Assembly (NCBI GenBank): GCA_001803205.1
Contig: MHBE01000016.1
Location: 1 to 35,153, forward strand
DNA length: 35,153 nucleotides
Direction: 5' to 3'
Source: Lentisphaerae bacterium GWF2_38_69
Lineage (GTDB): Bacteria > Verrucomicrobiota > Lentisphaeria > Victivallales > GWF2-38-69
Below, in pieces: positions 1-16,064 of the stretch. The notes under the pieces are model-generated. The model saw nothing but the letters and a program-made list of their open reading frames with translations, made no database searches and was not told the DNA's origin. Within the stretch, counting starts at the first letter, position 1. Each line of letters begins with the position of its first letter. Position numbers and translations under genes: made by a program.

Positions 1-678
1 AGTGTCTTGGTCCCTCCGTATTTTACTACAAGTGAGCTGTAAGTGTCTGCCAGAATTGTCTGGCTCCCACTTGCACAATACCATACTGCCCCTATCGCAG
101 TGTCTAGACTACCTAGGCTTGTCACTGTACTTCCTGACAGCAACAGTCTTCCTGCTCCGGTAAAGTCTATCGTCCCTCCTGTAGCATTGAATGTGCCTCG
201 AGCTCCAAAATCGCCTGTTCCAATTGTTAGTGTACCGGGGATCGCGGTGGCTCCGCTTACTGTAAGAGTGTTCGCTCCAACCGCCAGCGTTGATCCTGCA
301 TAGACTGTTAGTGCATTGTTTACTGTCACAGTTCCGCCCAGTGTCTTGATCCCTCCGTATTTTACTACAAAAGAGCTGTAAGTGTCTGCCAGAATTGTCT
401 GGCTCCCACTTGCACAATACCATACTGCTCCCATCGCAGTGTCAAGACTACCTAGGCTTGTCACTGTACTTCCTGACAGCAACAGTCTTCCTGCTCCGGT
501 AAAGTCTATCGTCCCTCCTGTAGCGTTGAATGTGCCTCGAGCTCCAAAATCGCCTGTGCCTATTGTCAGTGTGCCTGGAATTGTACATGTACCATTTACT
601 GTTAGCGTATTTGTGCCTATATTGAGCGATGAGCCTGTGTCAACTGTAAGGCCTCCGCTGAGAGTTCTGCTAAATGCA
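1..678 (-). repeat. 339-bp tandem coding repeats (113 residues) in the giant protein
   Basis: Positions 1-339 and 340-678 are two direct copies with a 339-bp period, exactly 113 codons. The first 220 or so bases of each are nearly identical at DNA level, with only about a dozen differences. Similarity fades after about 575 in the second copy. The left copy is cut by the window edge, so more copies may follow. Confidence 0.85.
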
Positions 679-3443
679 AGGGTTAAAGCAGTATTATTAT
701 CTATTAGCAGGTTTGCAGGGCCGTTTGTTGCGCCAAATTCCAATGCTCCTGTAGTTTGGGTAGAGGCTCCTGAATATTCTAGGGTTGATGAGGCTCCACT
801 GTAAGTAAGGGCATTGCCGGTGATAGCAACTGGATCTGCTACTGCCTTGTTCTGAACATATGAACCATTAATAGTAACGCTTCCAGAATTGGTTATTGTT
901 CCAAGGTTATCATTAAGAATAGTACCTCCAGCTGAAACGCTTATACTTCCATTGTTTGCTATAGTCCCGTCATTAACCAGAAGACCTATTATTGATAAAT
1001 CGGTTCCGCTCCCATTGGTTATTTCCAATGTCACTCCGCTTTCTATGTTAAGCTCTCCAGGAGCTAATATCGTCGCCTGATCAATGTAAGTATATTGAGA
1101 TATGGCAACTGTTCCTGAACGAATAGTAATCGTCCCTGCCGCATAGTCTGGAGCATAGTCCGCAGAATCCCAAGTAACACCACCATCAATAGAGACATTC
1201 CAAGTATCAATATTATCCCAATTCCCTGAAGTAAATGCATCAGCAGTTCTGAAGTCTGGAGCAATTCCGTTATACTCGTAGGCACCTATAGTTGGAGTAA
1301 CTGCGCTGCGGGCAAAACTACGCTGGTCTATATTAAGCCCAGAAGTGATTCCATTAGCAATTGCAATGCTGGCAGGATCAGTAAATCTCATAGTCTGAGT
1401 AGGCCCTCCATTCCAATTTCGACTATCCAGGTACAGTTGACCTGTGCCTCCTCCAACTCTAGTAAAGGTTCCGCTATGAGCCTGATCTGTCCAGTCTCCT
1501 GTACCAATCCAGGAATAATTATGTGAATTTTGCACTATATTGTACCCGTTATCTATAACTGTTTCTGACACTGAATCCCTATGAAAGTCGACATTGCCTA
1601 CTTCATCGTTATTTAGTGCAAGTATTGTGTTCTGCATTGTTATTTGAGATTCATCTATTAAAGATACGCCCCCCCAATAACCTGTAAAAGCCTCTGATCC
1701 AGTAGAGCTATTCCCTGAGATGGTGCTAAATTGAATATTCAATTGTGCCCCTGCCGTCGCTTCTATTGCTCCGCCTGATTCTACCGCACTATTGTTAACG
1801 ATTGTGGAGTTTGTCATTGCAAATGTACCGTCAGCTACAGCAACACCTCCGCCTGCAGTAACAGCGGTGTTTAAACTTACTGTGCTATTAGAGAGTGTCA
1901 ATGTCCCTTCATTTATCAAGATTCCTCCTCCTACCCCATTATATTCTCCAGTCAATGTAGCGGAATTAGAATAAATATTGCTATACGAAATGTTTGCAGT
2001 TGCTAAACTATCGATAAGAATTCCACCCCCTGTTCCTGCTTGATTGTTATAAATATCTGTGCCTTCGATATTGATAGACACTCTTCCAAATACGCCACCT
2101 CCAAAATCAACAGCAGTATTTCCGGTAATAGCTGTATTCCAGCGTGTATTCAGAGTTCCTGCATTATTAAATATACCGCCACCTGAACCTCCAGCGTCAT
2201 TATTCAGAACCGTTGAATCGTTAGATATAGTTATTGTTCCCCCTGTGTTATAAACTCCGGCACCATCTACAGCAGTGTTTTCCAAAATAACTGCATTTTC
2301 TAAATCTGTCACTCCTAAATTATAAATTCCGCCGCCATTACCTGTAGCAGTGCTATCTTGAATATAACTATCCTGATTTACTATCAAAGTGCCGGTATTA
2401 TATATTCCGCCGCCATGTAAAGTCGATACCGCATCATGTATTTGTGAATTACTTATAGTAAGAGTAGAAGAAACCGAATTATAGATTGCTCCACCACGAT
2501 ATGCTATAGAATTATCAACACTGACATGGTCGAGTACGAGATTGCCGCTTGCGACATCTATGCTGCCTCCGACTCCGGCGCCTACATCCCCAAAACCGGA
2601 AATATTCCCTCCGCTTATACTCGCCATATATTGTATAGTAACTGTATTTTCAGCACCAGAGTTGATTTCAAAAGCCCTGTAAGCAGAAGCTCCTGGCACA
2701 ACAACGCTCACATCAACACCACTTCCTCCTGTATTCGTCCCATTAATTGTCATTCTGTTGCCGATCGTTAACTGTGAACTTAGTATGATTACTTCGTTGC
2801 CTACGCCCAATGTAAATACAATTTCATCTCCTGGAGTAGCAGAAGCTATGGAATTTCTGAGAGTCCCTGCTCCTGAATCTGCATTGCTTGTAACAGTGAT
2901 AGTCGCCAGATGATTGTCATATAATCCCGGATTTATCGCGTTAGACTCAATATTTCCTAAAACAAATTCCAGGCTGAAATCTCCGTTCAAACCTGTTCCG
3001 TCAACAGAAGCAGCCACATCGGCTCCTGTATATGAAGCAAGGTCTGCAACAAAAGCTTTTCCTGTATCAGTCTGAGCCACATTGCAGCCGTAAAGCAGAA
3101 TATCGGCATTTTCAGAAAGATTGTCCTGCCATGAGGCTAAGTCAGCCTGATGAGCTTCAAGATAATTACTGTCTATCACTTGTCCATTCAATGAAATAAA
3201 TCCATCATTCCCGTGAGAAACGATATGCACCGCGTCAATTCCGTTATGCGAATTAATATATTCGTTGATTTGAGACAGCCCATTTCTTCCGGCTTCAAGC
3301 TGGACAGCCTCGACATTAGCCCCAAGAGAATCTATAATTGTTTGAGCGTCCATTACAGAAGAAGCTATAAACGCTACTTCATTAGTTTCAGGTTGGTGTA
3401 TTCCGACCCCGTCAAACAGGATTCTTTCTTCTAATTGATACAT
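1..3443 (-). CDS. Giant DUF4347 / LEPR-XLL-like surface protein, C-terminus off the left edge
   Basis: The frame is open from ATG at 3443 to the window edge, 1147 codons with no stop. An AAGGAG ribosome site lies 7 bases upstream of the ATG. Residues 4-12 read LEERILFDG, like the LEPR-XLL motif found at the start of giant exported proteins. DUF4347 follows (about 15-165), with a SHG at 76-78 and a YGCNVA block near 120. Residues about 190-720 are Gly/Asn/Thr-rich beta-helix rungs of the type GGGIYN and NTAV, including an NTILALNN segment near 603 typical of choice-of-anchor Q proteins. From about residue 720 the protein is made of autotransporter-like beta-strand repeats, ending in 113-residue units. 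There is no Sec signal peptide, which is usual for DUF4347 proteins and suggests another export route. It diverges from the export-type genes at 4415-9044, so an adhesin or surface-layer role is inferred. Domain calls are firm, function is not. Confidence 0.85.
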   Translation of the reverse strand, partial: MYQLEERILFDGVGIHQPETNEVAFIASSVMDAQTIIDSLGANVEAVQLEAGRNGLSQINEYINSHNGIDAVHIVSHGNDGFISLNGQVIDSNYLEAHQADLASWQDNLSENADILLYGCNVAQTDTGKAFVADLASYTGADVAASVDGTGLNGDFSLEFVLGNIESNAINPGLYDNHLATITVTSNADSGAGTLRNSIASATPGDEIVFTLGVGNEVIILSSQLTIGNRMTINGTNTGGSGVDVSVVVPGASAYRAFEINSGAENTVTIQYMASISGGNISGFGDVGAGVGGSIDVASGNLVLDHVSVDNSIAYRGGAIYNSVSSTLTISNSQIHDAVSTLHGGGIYNTGTLIVNQDSYIQDSTATGNGGGIYNLGVTDLENAVILENTAVDGAGVYNTGGTITISNDSTVLNNDAGGSGGGIFNNAGTLNTRWNTAITGNTAVDFGGGVFGRVSINIEGTDIYNNQAGTGGGILIDSLATANISYSNIYSNSATLTGEYNGVGGGILINEGTLTLSNSTVSLNTAVTAGGGVAVADGTFAMTNSTIVNNSAVESGGAIEATAGAQLNIQFSTISGNSSTGSEAFTGYWGGVSLIDESQITMQNTILALNNDEVGNVDFHRDSVSETVIDNGYNIVQNSHNYSWIGTGDWTDQAHSGTFTRVGGGTGQLYLDSRNWNGGPTQTMRFTDPASIAIANGITSGLNIDQRSFARSAVTPTIGAYEYNGIAPDFRTADAFTSGNWDNIDTWNVSIDGGVTWDSADYAPDYAAGTITIRSGTVAISQYTYIDQATILAPGELNIESGVTLEITNGSGTDLSIIGLLVNDGTIANNGSISVSAGGTILNDNLGTITNSGSVTINGSYVQNKAVADPVAITGNALTYSGASSTLEYSGASTQTTGALEFGATNGPANLLIDNNTALTLAFSRTLSGGLTVDTGSSLNIGTNTLTVNGTCTIPGTLTIGTGDFGARGTFNATGGTIDFTGAGRLLLSGSTVTSLGSLDTAMGAVWYCASGSQTILADTYSSFVVKYGGIKTLGGTVTVNNALTVYAGSTLAVGANTLTVSGATAIPGTLTIGTGDFGARGTFNATGGTIDFTGAGRLLLSGSTVTSLGSLDTAIGAVWYCASGSQTILADTYSSLVVKYGGTKT

Positions 3444-3612: not shown

Positions 3613-3852
3613 ATGTCAGAAAGCAGAGAAGTATTTGTGGACACAATCGGGCAGCTTCATTTCGTAAAAGGGATGGTAAGGTATGACCTCGTAAGCTATC
3701 AGCCAGGGAAAGAAGGCGCCGAACCTACTACAGAAGAAAAGCTCAGAGTAATTATGCCTCCCGATGGATTTCTGGCTACATTCAATACAATGCAGAGGTT
3801 AATTGACCAGCTCGTTGAAAAAGGGATACTTAAAAAAGTAGAAAAGAAGTAA
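3613..3852 (+). CDS. Small conserved-looking protein of unknown function (79 aa)
   Basis: The ATG is preceded by AGGA about nine bases upstream. The product is 79 residues, soluble and charged, with no signal peptide or membrane segment. The pattern is a short beta-rich N-terminal half (VDTIGQLHFVKG, then MVRYDLVSY), a conserved-looking LRVIMPPDGF block at about 50-59 and a C-terminal helix ending in lysines. The layout resembles small DUF3467-type proteins, but I cannot confirm membership and give no function. It sits between the giant surface protein (divergent) and the HlyD-type genes, separated from the latter by a 560-bp repeat block. A role in that locus is possible but only by position. 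Confidence 0.75.
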   Translation: MSESREVFVDTIGQLHFVKGMVRYDLVSYQPGKEGAEPTTEEKLRVIMPPDGFLATFNTMQRLIDQLVEKGILKKVEKK

Positions 3853-3867
3853 GAAAGTTCGTTATCT

Positions 3868-4021
3868 GGTAGGGCGTGTCTCTCCGAGACCGCCGGGTGA
3901 CAGTGGTCACCTCTTATATGCGGACGCTAATGCTTCTGCGTTATAAACTACGGAGCTTGCCACGCTCTGCGTGGAGGCGTCCCAATACCGCCATGGGCGG
4001 GACGCCCATGGCACGAAACCA
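3868..4021. repeat. Multi-hairpin intergenic repeat, copy A
   Basis: This 154-bp unit opens with GGTAGGGCG and contains five successive hairpins: 3873-3894 (GTCTC/GAGAC stem), 3896-3911 (GGTGAC/GTCACC), 3929-3942 (AATGC/GCGTT, one G-T pair), 3960-3974 (CCACGC/GCGTGG) and 3990-4012 (GCCATGGGCG/CGCCCATGGC, a perfect 10-bp stem with a GGA loop). Copy B lies 341 bp downstream with the same order. Confidence 0.85.
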
Positions 4022-4208
4022 TAAAAGAAGTAACAATGGCTTTGCATATGGTATGTATTGAGTAAAGCATCTTCAGTTGAGGGAGACGCAAGATTTTGCG
4101 TCTCTACAAACAGCCTCAACTGGCGAGTGAAATGAGGAACTTTAGTGATTGACGGACGCCTCGGAGATGCGTCCCTACCCTTTGAGGGAAATAATGTATG
4201 CAAAATCC

Positions 4209-4362
4209 GGTAGGGCGAGTCTCTCCGAGACTGCCGGGTGACAGTGGTCACCTCTTATATGCGGACGCTAACGCTTCTGCGTTATAAACTATGGAGCTTG
4301 CCACGCTCTGCGTGGAGGCGTCCCAATACTGCCATGGGCGGGACGCCCATGGTACGAAATCA
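4209..4362. repeat. Multi-hairpin intergenic repeat, copy B
   Basis: This is a direct copy of 3868-4021 with about ten base changes. Several changes keep pairing: the third hairpin is AACGC/GCGTT here (fully Watson-Crick) and AATGC/GCGTT in copy A. The last hairpin is at 4331-4353. It sits about 50 bases upstream of the HlyD-like gene. Confidence 0.85.
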
Positions 4363-4414
4363 TATTGAAAGGGTACGAACAAGAAACACGAAACTTTAAG
4401 TAAACAAAAATAAC

Positions 4415-5224
4415 ATGTTCACTTTAATGAAAAAAAAATCAGTTCTGCCGATAACTTTAATAGCTTTTCTAACTTACAGCATAACTTCCCATGCCGCGCA
4501 GTATGAGATAAACCCGGCCACAGAGCAAATAAAAGTAGTGCTTATGCCAAAGGAAAAAGCTGTTATATCCACGATTATTGACAGTACAGTAAAGGTATAT
4601 AATTTCAAAGAGGGTGAACCTTTTAAAAAAGATGACATAGTACTGCTCCTGGATGACGCTATCTACAACGATCAGTATCTGATAGCAAAAGCACAAAATG
4701 AAAAGGCCAACGCAAGCTATGCCTTTTACGAAAGCACTTTCAACCGTTATAAAGGGCTGAGAGAAAAAGGCTCAATGAGCGTTCAGGAATTTGAGAGCAT
4801 TGAACTCTACAAGACAAACACGAAGTTTGACATGTCCTTAGCCGAAGCTAATCTGAGTCTGGCAAAAGAGAAACTTGACGCATGCACGATAAGAGCTCCA
4901 TTCTCTGGGATAATAACAAAGAAGATTTTACAGGAATACGAGCTTGCAGAAGCAGCAGAACCTATAGTAGAGCTTATAAACGACAATGAGCTTCTGGCGG
5001 TAATGTACTTTCCCTCAAATATGATAGACAAAATAAAAATGGACGAGCCAATGACCTTTCATATAGATGAAATAAATGCTACGGCAACAGGCACAGTCTA
5101 CGAAACCGCGGGATATATTCTCTCAAGCAGCAGATGTTTTGAAGTAAAGGCAATAATTGATAATTCAGACAGAAAGCTTTTTGCAGGAATGTCGGGCACT
5201 CTTCTGCAGGATACCGGGAGGTAA
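4415..5224 (+). CDS. HlyD/RND-type periplasmic adaptor (membrane fusion protein), 269 aa
   Basis: A Sec signal peptide is visible: KKK at 6-8, a hydrophobic stretch, then SHA-AQ near residues 26-29. A lipoyl-like barrel half follows (about 45-75), then a two-helix coiled coil (about 80-155) with the YKGLREKGSMS turn seen in RND adaptors. The second lipoyl half contains CTIRAPFSGII at about 157-167, and a beta-barrel domain runs to the end. At 269 residues it is short for the family and lacks a long C-terminal domain. The start is uncertain: no ribosome site is obvious, and ATG at 4427 is an alternative that also leaves an intact signal peptide. The next gene begins 2 bases after the stop, so the two are co-transcribed. 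No pump gene is adjacent, so its partner is probably one of the next two proteins. Confidence 0.88.
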   Translation: MFTLMKKKSVLPITLIAFLTYSITSHAAQYEINPATEQIKVVLMPKEKAVISTIIDSTVKVYNFKEGEPFKKDDIVLLLDDAIYNDQYLIAKAQNEKANASYAFYESTFNRYKGLREKGSMSVQEFESIELYKTNTKFDMSLAEANLSLAKEKLDACTIRAPFSGIITKKILQEYELAEAAEPIVELINDNELLAVMYFPSNMIDKIKMDEPMTFHIDEINATATGTVYETAGYILSSSRCFEVKAIIDNSDRKLFAGMSGTLLQDTGR

Positions 5225-5226
5225 AA

Positions 5227-6726
5227 TTGGAGAACAATACCCCCCCCCCTAACAGCACTGAACCTAATGTCGATCTTAATGCAAACAGGACAGCGCCCTC
5301 CTCTTCTAAATTCCAATCTGTCAGACCTGCTTCTGAAAACGAGGCAGCGGCTCGGTTAAATCTTATTTCACTGATATTGAACCTGGGGCACGAAGCTTTC
5401 AAAAAGCCGCTGCCCGAAGCTCTCTACGCCCATATCGTAAATAACAGCAGAGTTATATCAGCCTACGATATGTCCTGCTTAATAGATATGCGCCGGGGCA
5501 AGGCTAGAATTATTGAATTAATGGGCAATGACAAAATCAACCGCAACACACAATACGCCAACAGCATTGAGGTCATAGCATCAACATTCAGGAAGCTTGA
5601 AAAAACCACTGAGATTACAAGAGAAAGTTTAATTAATGCCGGAGCCGAAAAAAACATTCTGGATATTTTTGAAGAATTTATTAAAAATCCCCGGGAAAAA
5701 AGAGTTTTCCTGGTTCCAATGCAGCCTCCCGGCAGTTCTAACGCGATTGATGAAAGTTTTGTCTGGTGCGTTGAGTATTATGACGACAAAATTTCTGAAA
5801 CCGTAACGAGGCTAAATTTATTGGCTCTGCATTACAGCCAGGCGATATGGTATTTACTAAAACCAGGCTCCAGGAAGCTTTTCAGGTTATCAAAGAAAAG
5901 CGATATTTTCCACACGAAAATTTTCTGGGCGGCTGCTTTATTTGTAGTCATCCTATCACTATTTCTTATCAGGATCGGGCAGAATATCGCCGGAGATTTT
6001 GAAATAGTCCCAAGAAACAGTGACCGGTACATAGCATACGCGCCATACCAGGGAAAAATAGAGGATGTTTACTTCCGCAATGGCGATAAAATCGAGATAG
6101 GCAGCACAATCCTTTCTTATGATACGCGAGAATTGCAATATGATTTGGAACAGGCTGAAACCGAATATGACGAGGCTTCAGCCAGGCTCGACATGATAAG
6201 ACAGAAGGCCTTTGACGACAATAATGAGCTGCCGAATGTGAAACTGCTCTCCCTGAATCGGGCGATAGCCAAAATATCCATTGAAAAGTACAAATGGCAG
6301 CTTGAGAACAGCGTCTTCAAGGCCAAAGATTCCGGAGTTATAATAATTGATGACGAATACAAACTTAAGGGCAAAGCAGTCAATCCCGGTGAAAAGCTAT
6401 TCGAAATAGTTAAACCCAGCGACAGAGTATATGCTGAAATTTTCCTGAATGAAGCAGATTCATCAGTGATGTCCAATATTTCATCAATTGCATTGTACCT
6501 GCATGCCAAACCGGAAATATCACTTCAAGGAGAAGTAATATATATTAGTCCTGTCCCTGTATTAACGGAAAAGAAACAATTCTGCTATTTAATCAAGCTC
6601 GATCTGAAAAATACAGATGGAAGTTTGATGAACGGAATGCGTGGCGTAGCAAGAATCACGGGAGAAAAAGTTTCGCTGGGATATTATTTATTCAGGAACC
6701 TGATTCTCTGGTGGCGTAAATTCTAA
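5227..6726 (+). CDS. GAF-like domain plus membrane-anchored HlyD adaptor, 499 aa
   Basis: The start is TTG at 5227 with GGGAGG at 5216-5221; no ATG occurs in frame for about 80 codons. Residues 1-40 are a Pro/Asn/Ser-rich tail. Residues about 45-220 look like a cytoplasmic GAF-type domain (SLINAGAEKNIL, then a VFLVPM strand and an ESFVWCVEYY strand). One transmembrane helix is at about 233-253, followed by a periplasmic HlyD half: YIAYAPYQGKIEDVYFRNGD (lipoyl), a coiled coil at about 295-360, KDSGVIII at about 365, and a beta-barrel. It ends with YYLFRNLILWWRKF, like the C-terminus of the M50 protein downstream. A run of ten C at 5240-5249 lies within codons 5-8. The GAF call is by overall pattern and less certain than the HlyD call. 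Confidence 0.85.
   Translation: MENNTPPPNSTEPNVDLNANRTAPSSSKFQSVRPASENEAAARLNLISLILNLGHEAFKKPLPEALYAHIVNNSRVISAYDMSCLIDMRRGKARIIELMGNDKINRNTQYANSIEVIASTFRKLEKTTEITRESLINAGAEKNILDIFEEFIKNPREKRVFLVPMQPPGSSNAIDESFVWCVEYYDDKISETVTRLNLLALHYSQAIWYLLKPGSRKLFRLSKKSDIFHTKIFWAAALFVVILSLFLIRIGQNIAGDFEIVPRNSDRYIAYAPYQGKIEDVYFRNGDKIEIGSTILSYDTRELQYDLEQAETEYDEASARLDMIRQKAFDDNNELPNVKLLSLNRAIAKISIEKYKWQLENSVFKAKDSGVIIIDDEYKLKGKAVNPGEKLFEIVKPSDRVYAEIFLNEADSSVMSNISSIALYLHAKPEISLQGEVIYISPVPVLTEKKQFCYLIKLDLKNTDGSLMNGMRGVARITGEKVSLGYYLFRNLILWWRKF
5240..5249 (+). repeat. Homopolymer tract C10 inside the start of the GAF-HlyD gene
   Basis: Ten consecutive C lie in codons 5-8 of the gene starting at 5227. One extra C would put a TAA stop directly after the tract. 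Loss of one C would shift the frame and reach a stop about 45 codons later. Such tracts are typical slipped-strand sites in phase-variable surface or export genes. Confidence 0.6.
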
Positions 6727-6932
6727 AATCTAAAGATCGAGATTTCATATACTATAGAAATTGCAAATACAAAATACGAAATTCTAAGCCCGAAACTCTA
6801 AACAATATCAAATTCTCTAATGTTTAAATTTTTGAAACCTGGAAAATTCGGATTTGTTTAGGATTTGAATATTAGGATTTCGTGCTTGAATATTGTGATT
6901 TAACTCAATTTTAAACCAGAAACTTTAATAAT
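6727..6932. other. AT-rich intergenic spacer with degenerate ATT-type repeats
   Basis: I see no gene. The 206 bp are rich in near-repeats of AAATTCTAA, GGATTT and GAATATT on the same strand, a low-complexity pattern. It separates the GAF-HlyD gene from the M50-HlyD gene and may hold a promoter for the latter, but no clear -35/-10 pair or terminator hairpin is visible. Confidence 0.5.
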
Positions 6933-9044
6933 ATGGATTCCGGCAAAAAAAATACAGCTTTAGGGATTTTAAGAAAAGATCTGCAGCTAATCCGGTCTGA
7001 CGATCCTTATTCGGGAAAACTGTTCTGGATGATTTTTGATCCCGTAAATGACAAGTATTACAAAATCAATGAACTTGACAAGGAAATCATTTCCGCTCTT
7101 AACAGATCTTTCACACTTGAAGAATATATCTCATACCTGAAAGAAGTCATAAATTTAGATGTTTCACAAGAAAAGCTTTTGTCTGTAATTTCCTTCCTGA
7201 GGAATAACGGGCTTATGCTCCCGGAATATCGACTTGACGAAAAAAGGATTGAAGGGCTGAGAAACCTCCGGAAACGCACATGGTTCGACAGGCTTTTGAA
7301 CGCTTACTTATTCTTTAAAATACCCGTATGGTACCCTGATGATTTTTTAAATAGAACCATAAAAAAAGTTAATTTTATCTTTAATATCTGGACTATATGG
7401 ATAATCGTCTTTATCGCGGTAATTGGTTATCTTCAAGTCCTGATAAACTGGAACAGGTTTATATCAGAAGTAATTTCAACTTTTAATATTAACGGAGCCA
7501 TCCGTTATATCTTTGTCATTGCGGCAGTTAAAATTCTCCATGAGCTTGCGCATTGCTACGCGGCAAAATACCTGGGGTCAAGGGTAAGATGCGTGGGTAT
7601 AGGGATAATATTCCTGATGCCGCGATTATATACAGACATAACGGATTCATGGAGAATAACCAATCCTAAAAAAAGAGCTGTAATAGACTCTGCCGGAATT
7701 CTCGTGGAGTTGATGATAGGAGGAATCGCCGCATATATCTGGGCAAAAATCCCCCCCGGATTGCTCAATTCTCTGGCTTATTATCTTTGTACTGTAAGCA
7801 TTATCAACACCCTTTTCATCAACGGGAACCCCTTTATAAGATTTGACGGGTATTATCTTCTTTCCGATCTAGTCGGAGTAGAGAATCTCATGAAGAAGAC
7901 AGTTGATGCCTGGGATAAAATCTTTGAATTTCTTTTTTTAGGAATAAAATTTTCAAGGAAAAAACTTAAAGCAATAGCCGGGAACAAGTACGCGCTCATA
8001 ATTATCTATGGATTATTTACTTTCGTATACAGAATATTTCTTTATACAGGTTTTGTTCTGATAGTATATTATATGTTTTTCAAGGCTTTGGGCATACTGC
8101 TGGCCATTGCTGAAATACACCTTCTTTTCTATCGTCCGCTGAAAGGACTCATTCTGAAGCTCAGATCAGCAAAAAAGATCAGAAAGGGAAAGACCTCGAG
8201 AACAGCGTTAGCTGTCTTTATAATTATATTCATTCTGATTATAGCTCCTCTGCCATGGAACACCTCCATACCCTGCATTTCAGTATCGACCCAAAAAGAA
8301 TATCTTTATATGCATCAGGACGGCTTTTTTGTTAACTCAATTGATGATTCGGCGACAGTCGCAAAAGATCAGACAATCGCACAATTCTATAATCCGTATA
8401 TACAATGGGAGCTCAATCGCCAGAAACTCCAGCTGGAGATGGCCAAAGTGACACTAGATCAGATATACAGCGATCCCACGAAATTGGAACTTACAAGAAT
8501 ATATGAAGAACGAAAAAGAAGAACAGAATCTACTATCAAAGATTTGGAGAAGCAAATTGCATCCCTCTGCTTTAAAGCAGATTTTCCCGGTAAGTTTATT
8601 ATGTCGGATAAAAATTTACAACAGGGAAAATGGTACAGGAAAGGCGACTTTTTCGGAGAAGTAGCAGATCCTGAAAAACCTGAAATTCTGGCTTATGCCA
8701 GTGAGTCGGCGGCAAAGGATATATCGGTGGGAGATTCAGTAACAATCCATCTGGGCAACGACATTAAGAGCTACTACGGAACTGTAAGCTATATTGACAA
8801 TGTGCCTGCATCGTTATTGAAACAGAGCCCTCTTCTTGATGCTTTCGGAGGACCGATAGAAACAATTCCCCAAGAGAACAATCTATTCAAATTAAAAGAC
8901 AGATGCTATGAAATAACCATTTGCGTTGATACAAAGATCCCTCTTGAGAAGACAGGACTTGTCAATATCAGGATTTATAAATCTATGGCTTATTATTTAT
9001 TTAAAAACATTCTGGCTCCGTTGCAGAAAGAGCTTTCCTTCTGA
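6933..9044 (+). CDS. PqqD-like / M50 site-2-protease-like / HlyD fusion membrane protein, 703 aa
   Basis: Residues about 15-110 resemble a PqqD-type winged-helix module. Membrane segments start near 150. The zinc motif HELAH is at 203-207 in a transmembrane helix, and the second M50 motif NPFIRFDGYYL is at 299-309, where D305 should be the third zinc ligand, so the metalloprotease core looks complete. More helices lie at about 243-275, 278-296, 350-405 and 423-445. Residues about 450-703 form a HlyD-like part: a lipoyl-type segment, a coiled coil at about 490-545 (RIYEERKRRTESTIKDLEK), ADFPGKF and a final barrel. It ends in YYLFKNILAPL, echoing the protein upstream. Known relatives combine M50 and biotinyl-lipoyl domains next to adaptor genes; the substrate is not known. 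I infer it is the inner-membrane component of this locus, either cleaving or exporting the giant protein. No ribosome site is evident. Confidence 0.87.
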   Translation: MDSGKKNTALGILRKDLQLIRSDDPYSGKLFWMIFDPVNDKYYKINELDKEIISALNRSFTLEEYISYLKEVINLDVSQEKLLSVISFLRNNGLMLPEYRLDEKRIEGLRNLRKRTWFDRLLNAYLFFKIPVWYPDDFLNRTIKKVNFIFNIWTIWIIVFIAVIGYLQVLINWNRFISEVISTFNINGAIRYIFVIAAVKILHELAHCYAAKYLGSRVRCVGIGIIFLMPRLYTDITDSWRITNPKKRAVIDSAGILVELMIGGIAAYIWAKIPPGLLNSLAYYLCTVSIINTLFINGNPFIRFDGYYLLSDLVGVENLMKKTVDAWDKIFEFLFLGIKFSRKKLKAIAGNKYALIIIYGLFTFVYRIFLYTGFVLIVYYMFFKALGILLAIAEIHLLFYRPLKGLILKLRSAKKIRKGKTSRTALAVFIIIFILIIAPLPWNTSIPCISVSTQKEYLYMHQDGFFVNSIDDSATVAKDQTIAQFYNPYIQWELNRQKLQLEMAKVTLDQIYSDPTKLELTRIYEERKRRTESTIKDLEKQIASLCFKADFPGKFIMSDKNLQQGKWYRKGDFFGEVADPEKPEILAYASESAAKDISVGDSVTIHLGNDIKSYYGTVSYIDNVPASLLKQSPLLDAFGGPIETIPQENNLFKLKDRCYEITICVDTKIPLEKTGLVNIRIYKSMAYYLFKNILAPLQKELSF

Positions 9045-15273: not shown

Positions 15274-15366
15274 TAAAGCTACATGAATTTCGAAAATCAT
15301 TTCGTGATAGATATAAAAGCCTTTCAAAATAAATAGTTTACAGTAAATGCAGGTTCCGTCTTATTA

Positions 15367-15588
15367 TCATTCATAAATCTTTTCGTCGTCTATCATGTGC
15401 AGGGAATCAAGAAAAAGTTCTGTGCTAATCAATTCTTTTTGTCTGAGTCCAGAGAAGATTTCCATATATTGGATAGGCGTTATAAAAAGTTCTCCGTTAA
15501 TTTCTTTGGCGGTTAGTGTAAATTTCTTTTTAATGTCTTCATTTCCTCTAAGTATCCTGATAAGAATATCTGAGTCGATAATTATCAT
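15367..15588 (-). pseudogene. Truncated PIN-domain toxin (VapC-like), 73 aa left
   Basis: The first half of a PIN nuclease is clear: IIIDSDILIRILRG with the first acidic residue at position 5, and TPIQYMEIFSGLR with the conserved Glu near 43. Intact VapC toxins are about 125-140 residues and carry further acidic residues in the second half (a D-A-hydrophobic-I-A type motif). Here the frame stops after residue 73, and no other frame beyond it continues the domain. The repeats at 15160-15273 lie just downstream, so a deletion or repeat-linked rearrangement may have removed the end. The ATG overlaps the antitoxin stop (ATGA), the normal arrangement of such pairs. It is probably inactive as a nuclease. 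Confidence 0.75.
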
Positions 15589-15818
15589 ATTCTTCTATCT
15601 CTACGAATATTATCTACATACTCCTCTGGAGATTGTGACTCATCATCCCAGACTCCTGATACCTTTTCCATCCTGTTTAATATTGCGGAATATCTATTTT
15701 TTATATTACTCTTAATATTCAAACGGATTATCTCTGAATAAGAAAGGTGGCTTTTTCTTTTCTCCTTTTCCAGGAATTTATATATTTCATCATCAAGATA
15801 TATCTGTGTCCTGTGCAT
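15585..15818 (-). CDS. Ribbon-helix-helix type antitoxin (VapB/CopG-like), 77 aa
   Basis: The start is the ATG at 15818, which has AGGAGG five bases upstream; an earlier in-frame start at 15845 lacks one. The N-terminus HRTQIYLDDEIYKFLEKEKR is a ribbon-helix-helix pattern (short beta strand, then two helices with SYSEIIRLNI). The acidic C-terminal part (WDDESQSPEEYVDNIR) would wrap the toxin. Such proteins neutralise the partner and repress their own promoter. The toxin gene that follows, with a four-base overlap, is truncated. Confidence 0.8.
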   Translation of the reverse strand: MHRTQIYLDDEIYKFLEKEKRKSHLSYSEIIRLNIKSNIKNRYSAILNRMEKVSGVWDDESQSPEEYVDNIRRDRRI

Positions 15819-16064
15819 ATTAACCTCCTGCTCCAATGTACGCATGCATTATGATAGTCATTATGTTTTCTTTTTCAATAGAAATTACAACTCAAATTAC
15901 TCTTACAGTTCTGAGTGAAAAAAATTCGTACCTATGCCGGAGATATATCTGGAAAGCAGCGTTCAAAAAAGTTCTCAGAGACTTCTATTTCATAAATAAG
16001 TAAAAATCTATTCTCTTTAAAGCACAAAATAGCGCAATATCGTGAAGAGAGCTATATAGGCATG
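15819..16064. other. Intergenic spacer, promoter side of the antitoxin gene
   Basis: No gene is visible. It is AT-rich and must carry the promoter for the antitoxin-toxin pair, near 15840-15900, where an autoregulatory operator would be expected. A GCATGCATTATGAT stretch at 15842-15855 is partly palindromic but not convincing on its own. The asparaginase-like gene ends at the right edge without an obvious terminator hairpin. Confidence 0.35.

Follow-up and report, generated by a model that had tools for sequence, protein, structure and literature searches.

We analysed a 35,153-nucleotide stretch of DNA from Lentisphaerae bacterium GWF2_38_69 (hereafter the window), which is the entire contig C16 (MHBE01000016.1) of a 3.1-Mb genome, and in which three genes for proteins with HlyD-type adaptor domains (positions 4415–9044) lie beside a divergent gene for a DUF4347 surface protein. 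This locus probably supplies the inner-membrane and periplasmic components of an exporter for very large surface proteins that carry an N-terminal LExR motif and no Sec signal. Taken as a whole, it is likely to be a variant, without a dedicated SecA, of a module that is known computationally and unstudied experimentally (PMC4452313; Kamneva, Poudel and Ward 2015), and that can now be given a likely cargo. The direct support consists of gene order, conservation, co-occurrence and adjacency with LExR-tagged giant proteins, the catalytic residues, the protein folds and the lack of a second SecA.

The adaptor trio and its divergent neighbour

The three genes are co-directional, and their open reading frames (ORFs) were judged to be real. 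HlyD1 (4415–5224, + strand; 269 aa) is a periplasmic adaptor with a Sec-type N-terminus (~residues 1–27) and an RND_mfp/HlyD fold (Pfam HlyD_3, E = 4e-11). The TTG start of HlyD2 (5227–6726, +; 499 aa) lies 3 bases after the HlyD1 stop codon, and the protein combines a cytoplasmic GAF-like domain (~5329–5862), a transmembrane (TM) helix (~residues 228–250) and a periplasmic HlyD domain (~6040–6639, +; Pfam HlyD_D23, E = 1e-10). Pfam did not call GAF on HlyD2 of the window itself; GAF was matched in 6 of 37 members of the HlyD2 family (best 3e-11), and the AlphaFold model (mean predicted local distance difference test score, pLDDT, 88) contains a separate α/β domain (~35–212) followed by the TM helix and the HlyD fold. 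The third protein, hereafter the M50 protein (6933–9044, +; 703 aa; mean pLDDT 86), consists of a PqqD/RRE-like N-terminus (~6957–7217), an intramembrane M50 core (Peptidase_M50, E = 1.5e-7) and a periplasmic HlyD domain (~8250–9032, +; HlyD_3, E = 3e-4). Its N-terminus matched the NCBIfam model WgkC at residues 31–92 (E = 8e-5) and, weakly, TfuB1 (E = 0.09) and PqqD (E = 0.75) in a PDB profile search. A PDB fold search with the HlyD2 and M50 models returned, among the matches listed, only adaptors of the MacA/AcrA type, which aligned with the HlyD parts; the GAF and PqqD domains were not resolved among these matches. The domain assignments of the original prediction, which had described a Sec-exported HlyD protein, a GAF-like/TM/HlyD protein and a PqqD/M50/HlyD protein beside a divergent DUF4347 gene, agree with these results, the GAF call being based on homologues and on the model.

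Both motifs of M50 or site-2 proteases, HExxH and NPxxxxDG, are present in TM helices of the M50 protein. The zinc site HELAH (7539–7553, +) comprises residues 203–207, and the second motif NPFIRFDG (7827–7850, +) comprises residues 299–306. In 37 diverse M50 relatives from several phyla, His203, Glu204 and His207 are invariant, as are Asn299, Asp305 and Gly306, with Pro300 nearly so. The core thus appears intact, as had been proposed, and protease activity is predicted from these motifs.

The divergent gene (3–3443, −) is visible as its 5′ part of 1147 aa and continues past the contig end. Its product begins MYQLEERILFDG and carries the N-terminal LExR motif (MYQ-LEERILFDG; 3409–3434, −), a proposed export tag for which a DNA pattern was searched in 41 genomes (see below). 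The DUF4347 domain follows the motif directly (residues 23–169; Pfam E = 6e-44), and the later parts are repeat-like, with a choice-of-anchor Q domain at residues 677–725. The original prediction of a giant protein without a signal peptide held with regard to the signal, as no Sec-like hydrophobic stretch was found in this protein; its giant size is suggested by relatives with open frames of up to 16,206 aa. The window protein, whose tag reads LEERILFDG, did not match the LEPR-XLL model NF012209 (cut-off 17 bits), and relatives at loci L183 and L207 scored 21.1 and 19.4 bits with it.

Conservation of the locus and its link to tagged giant proteins

The M50 protein occurs in 19 of 41 genomes from the order of the window, Victivallales, among them Victivallis vadensis and other Lentisphaerota. 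Loci were read up to ~20 kb around each M50 gene, and the set recurring there consists of an outer-membrane efflux protein (OEP) lipoprotein, an LExR/DUF4347 giant, a small protein, HlyD1, HlyD2 and the M50 protein itself, in varying order. The linkage of the OEP, the giant and the three HlyD-type genes is kept in the same-order genomes and across phyla. The OEP lipoprotein is TolC-like (PF02321, E down to 4e-30) and is encoded beside the giant gene in many relatives. The window contig has no OEP gene and stops inside the giant gene, so that the missing outer-membrane channel is plausibly an effect of the contig end; this explanation is put with reserve, as the genome encodes two OEPs at other sites (contigs C5 and C54) that are only weakly similar to the locus type. 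A wider scan of 84,980 species genomes yielded at least 539 relatives, and the best 80 of these belong to Lentisphaerota, Thermodesulfobacteriota, Planctomycetota, Nitrospirota, Acinetobacter, Dyella and others.

Co-occurrence of the M50 gene with DUF4347/LExR giants, the association on which the original prediction could be checked, is far above chance, and the genes are usually adjacent. Among the 41 genomes, DUF4347 was found in 18 and M50 in 19, with both in 17 (Fisher test ignoring shared ancestry, as in the tests that follow, P = 1.9e-8); across 195 genomes of the phylum, M50 was found in 40, DUF4347 over the cut-off in 25 and both in 20 (P = 4e-12). The DNA pattern for LE[ED]R[IVM]LF[DE][AG] gave 28 matches in 18 of the 41 genomes, 17 of which are M50-positive, and a reversed control pattern gave none in the same genomes. 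Within six families that hold both positive and negative genomes, M50 and the LExR motif switch together with one exception, G036. The mismatches look technical: G036 is 77% complete and G010 80% complete, and the tag of G009 reads LEERIYFDG. In G002, seemingly without DUF4347, the contig with M50 has the LExR motif at base 44, and its giant is therefore cut off. As a safeguard against shared ancestry, we rely on the switches within families and on an independent result from 99 Moraxellaceae genomes, in which all 5 LEPR-XLL genomes fall within the 7 that are M50-positive (P = 2.9e-7); in three of these genomes, giants of 2414 to 11,506 aa lie beside the locus. The locus also has LEPR-XLL giants 11,500 to 12,900 residues long beside it in Acinetobacter, where they reach 12,901 aa, and in Dyella, where the giant has 12,776 aa; in other Verrucomicrobiota, proteins with LEQRILLSA, LETRMLLSA or LEPRIMLSA adjoin the module. 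We replaced DUF4347 by the LExR motif as the linking feature, because the motif also marks giants with no detected DUF4347 (Dyella and several Verrucomicrobiota loci). Both LEPR-XLL and DUF4347 received only passing mentions in the literature searched.

Individual genomes added further observations. G006 has five LExR starts (contigs C15, C18, C22 and C23), one of which lies in the 16,206-aa frame, and a single M50 locus, as would be expected if one machine served several substrates. At locus L052, a 203-aa LEDRVLFDAA remnant (15346–15957, −) lies between OEP and HlyD1 and is apparently a decayed giant gene.

Many of the complete giants of Lentisphaerota have a short tail of the form FKxDhExxLDExh at the C-terminus. 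A regular expression for this tail matched 10 of 17 distinct giant C-termini and 1 of 1,223 other ORFs, a count that is descriptive since the expression was written after the sequences had been seen; the lone other ORF (L107) itself seems to be a fragment of a giant that ends at HlyD1. Loci named for the shared tail are L025, L028, L043, L051, L091, L099, L102, L107 and L211. The tail is a candidate second export signal; the C-terminus of the window giant lies beyond the contig.

Two M50 lineages and the source of energy

At the loci of a sister lineage, a short SecA (~670 aa, mostly 595–726 aa) is encoded, usually directly after the M50 gene. Acinetobacter, Dyella, Desulfuromonas, Nitrospirota and a single Lentisphaerae genome have such SecA-linked loci, as do most of the non-Victivallales Verrucomicrobiota that were sampled, and the SecA of the Dyella locus matched SecA_DEAD with E = 7e-98. 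The Lentisphaerota relatives have a single SecA of ~1000 aa away from the locus, and the genome of the window encodes one (C5, 1033-aa frame), with no second SecA found at the window locus or in the genome. An unlinked second SecA in the order was considered and rejected, as 40 of the 41 genomes hold exactly one. A tree of M50 proteins (112 rows, quick method, midpoint root, with several long branches including that of the window) splits in two with SH-aLRT support of 100: the 27 SecA-linked loci all fall in one clade and the 22 DUF4347-linked loci, that of the window included, all in the other, SecA-less clade. These results suggest SecA as a plausible motor, rather than an ATP-binding cassette (ABC) or resistance-nodulation-division (RND) pump, and by inference the housekeeping SecA would power the SecA-less lineage. 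This lineage appears to be new here: it was not seen in the parts of PMC4452313 consulted, and it would be expected to escape that approach because the study started from SecA. A SecA-less-type M50 locus was also found in the Moraxellaceae sample (L207; genome G100, contig C64), with a giant that carries LEPRVLLDA and DUF4347; its family otherwise holds SecA-type loci, and the locus looks like a horizontal acquisition.

Of the SecA-less loci, 73 in number, 30 are flanked on either side by 6.9 kb or more. Among these 30, at least two further HlyD genes were present in 27, OEP in 15 and DUF4347 in 14. Four Verrucomicrobiota loci from one genus (L178–L181; 2.2–2.5-Mb genomes) hold M50 and two HlyD proteins but lack SecA, and no LExR giant is visible there within ~8 kb.

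The idea that the locus regularly includes an ABC or RND pump was rejected, as a motif and size scan of SecA-less loci found only scattered ABC genes. An ORF with ABC motifs lies within 12 kb at 8 of the 30 well-flanked loci. A pair resembling a type I secretion system (T1SS), consisting of an ABC_membrane/ABC_tran gene and its own HlyD, stands directly upstream of OEP at 3 of the 73 loci (L092:5–3189, L099:2–2253 and L102:2–2991), joined to the cluster of OEP, DUF4347 giant and trio; all three loci belong to one Lentisphaerota part of the M50 tree. At the window locus there is no ABC exporter, unlinked copies in the genome not having been searched. The description of the locus as lacking a pump needs correction, as it stems from a truncated contig and from looking to the wrong types of pump, ABC and RND: relatives encode an OEP in the locus, and a SecA follows M50 in the sister lineage.

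The remaining features of the window concern its gaps and right end. Between the DUF4347 gene and the trio lies a gene for a conserved 79-aa protein without a Pfam match (3613–3852, +), which had been overlooked in the original prediction. It adjoins the module in several relatives; it was rejected as a part of the system, being present in 31 of the 41 genomes, many without M50, and thus not specific. The gene is sometimes tandem, with four copies in G006 C10. The gap upstream of HlyD1 contains a 160-nt direct repeat, 95% identical (3864–4023 and 4205–4364), that looks like a dispersed repeat element. At the right contig end (31641–35153), a phage integrase and small Cox/HTH-like genes mark the edge of an integrated element.

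Proposed export route, alternatives and known systems

From these observations we infer that export takes place, that the PqqD-like domain binds the tag and that cleavage occurs, and also where the energy comes from. By analogy with PqqD/RRE domains that bind leader peptides, the PqqD-like domain of the M50 protein would bind the N-terminal LExR tag on the cytoplasmic side, and the M50 core, with its zinc site intact, may act in the inner membrane to process or gate the N-terminus that bears the tag. In the periplasm, the HlyD parts of the three proteins (free, on the GAF protein and on the M50 protein) would form a conduit, for which the TolC-like OEP lipoprotein would be the outer-membrane exit. 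ATP would be used by SecA, either the dedicated short SecA of the sister lineage or, in the lineage of the window, the single housekeeping SecA. A broader proposal, which we advance only tentatively, is that of a distinct envelope-spanning system in several phyla, in which a PqqD-like/M50/HlyD fusion reads both an LExR leader and a C-terminal tail on giants of ~1,000–16,000 residues and passes them to an HlyD/OEP conduit; one lineage would be driven by a SecA of its own, and the other would do without a dedicated ATPase.

Several points weigh against an exporter of this kind. The window locus encodes no energy source, OEP and DUF4347 were present at just 15 and 14, respectively, of the 30 well-flanked SecA-less loci, leader binding draws on a weak PqqD similarity and on analogy, and the co-occurrence tests do not correct for shared ancestry. 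No experiment on any member of the module was found in the literature searched. In addition, the conserved tail of the giants occupies the usual position of a T1SS signal, such signals being located at the substrate C-terminus, and the T1SS-type ABC/HlyD pair belongs to the same cluster in a few SecA-less relatives; an ABC exporter acting in trans is possible. These last points lead to the most likely alternative, which we nevertheless consider unlikely: a classical type I exporter, with its genes elsewhere in the genome, would carry the giants by means of their C-terminal tail, and the trio would be an accessory for processing, gating or anchoring. The ABC/HlyD genes that immediately precede OEP and the DUF4347 giant at L092, L099 and L102 and the amphipathic look of the tail would fit this explanation, whereas the restriction of the pair to 3 of 73 loci in one part of the tree, the presence of SecA rather than ABC in the sister-lineage operon and the failure to find RTX repeats in the giants of relatives argue against it. 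The original prediction would have been undermined by an ABC or RND pump present consistently at these loci, and this is not the pattern observed.

It is improbable that LExR serves for sorting or anchoring and that M50, outside any conduit, is a dedicated sorting protease which cleaves proteins once Sec has translocated them and passes them on. An intact intramembrane protease core and a short N-terminal tag common to otherwise unrelated giants would suit such sorting, for which three HlyD adaptors and an OEP would be superfluous, and the giants lack a Sec-like signal. A signalling device, in which the GAF protein senses a ligand, M50 cleaves a regulator as RseP does and the giant is a regulated neighbour, is considerably harder to accept: it would account for the GAF domain on HlyD2, for whose protein PMC4452313 suggested a regulatory role, but not for the periplasmic adaptor domains on all three proteins, for OEP and SecA as parts of the module or for a linkage to giants with one tag instead of regulators. 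The M50 sequences themselves raised a further option, as all 37 members match the daptide M50 model NF041824 (E ≤ 0.01) and 27 match LiaK. A maturation and export cluster for ribosomally synthesised and post-translationally modified peptides (daptide or YydH/LiaK-like), with the giant incidental, is barely credible, given the near-complete co-occurrence with giants. This assignment was rejected, since the window protein (E = 3e-35, 122 bits) falls far below the 300-bit equivalog cut-off, and no precursor peptide or modification enzyme was noticed at the loci.

An exporter for tagged giants would address a real gap, namely how bacteria export proteins that are several thousand residues long and have no Sec signal. 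The LExR/LEPR-XLL/DUF4347 giants provide the module described in 2015 with a likely cargo, a testable tag and a possible reason for the missing signal peptides, and a lineage without a dedicated SecA makes the question of transport energy directly testable.

The closest known system is the module of PMC4452313, in which a secondary SecA_DEAD protein accompanies HlyD, GAF/HlyD and Peptidase_M50 proteins and sometimes OEP. In that paper, SecA was put forward as the ATPase, M50 was suggested to be a possible pore in the pump position, the biological role was described as completely unknown and no substrate was named; its main text does not mention DUF4347, LEPR or Victivallis. The notion of a little-described, protease-linked secretion system accordingly needs correction with regard to the module and the pump position of M50, both of which had been reported there. 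Like that module, the window locus has M50-HlyD, GAF-HlyD and free HlyD proteins, no ABC transporter and, in relatives, an OEP sometimes nearby; the GAF-HlyD feature is supported for HlyD by Pfam and for GAF by six homologues and the modelled N-terminal domain. Unlike it, the lineage of the window forms a separate clade and lacks a secondary SecA, both at the locus and elsewhere in the genome, and LExR/DUF4347 giants are tied to the module.

Other systems share single features. Type I secretion (HlyB/HlyD/TolC) has in common the HlyD adaptors and the TolC-family channel, and the conserved C-terminal tail of the giants lies at the position of its signals; it differs in that an ABC exporter is at the locus in three relatives only and in the N-terminal tag, the three adaptors and the intramembrane protease. 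The LEPR-XLL giants (NF012209) are likewise very large surface proteins with an N-terminal LExR motif that adjoin the same module, whereas the LEERILFDG protein of the window is not scored by that model and has DUF4347 directly after the motif. The peptide-maturation M50 proteases (daptide NF041824, YydH/LiaK) resemble the M50 protein in sequence and PqqD-like/M50 layout; its bit score, HlyD domain and giant partners set it apart. In the accessory Sec system of Gram-positive bacteria (SecA2/SecY2), a second SecA serves very large adhesins, the serine-rich repeat adhesins. The second SecA of the sister lineage alongside very large proteins is similar; no SecY2 or glycosylation genes were noticed at the loci, in the course of work that included no search aimed at them. 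In contrast to accessory Sec, the module described here includes envelope-spanning HlyD/OEP parts, and the branch of the window has no second SecA.

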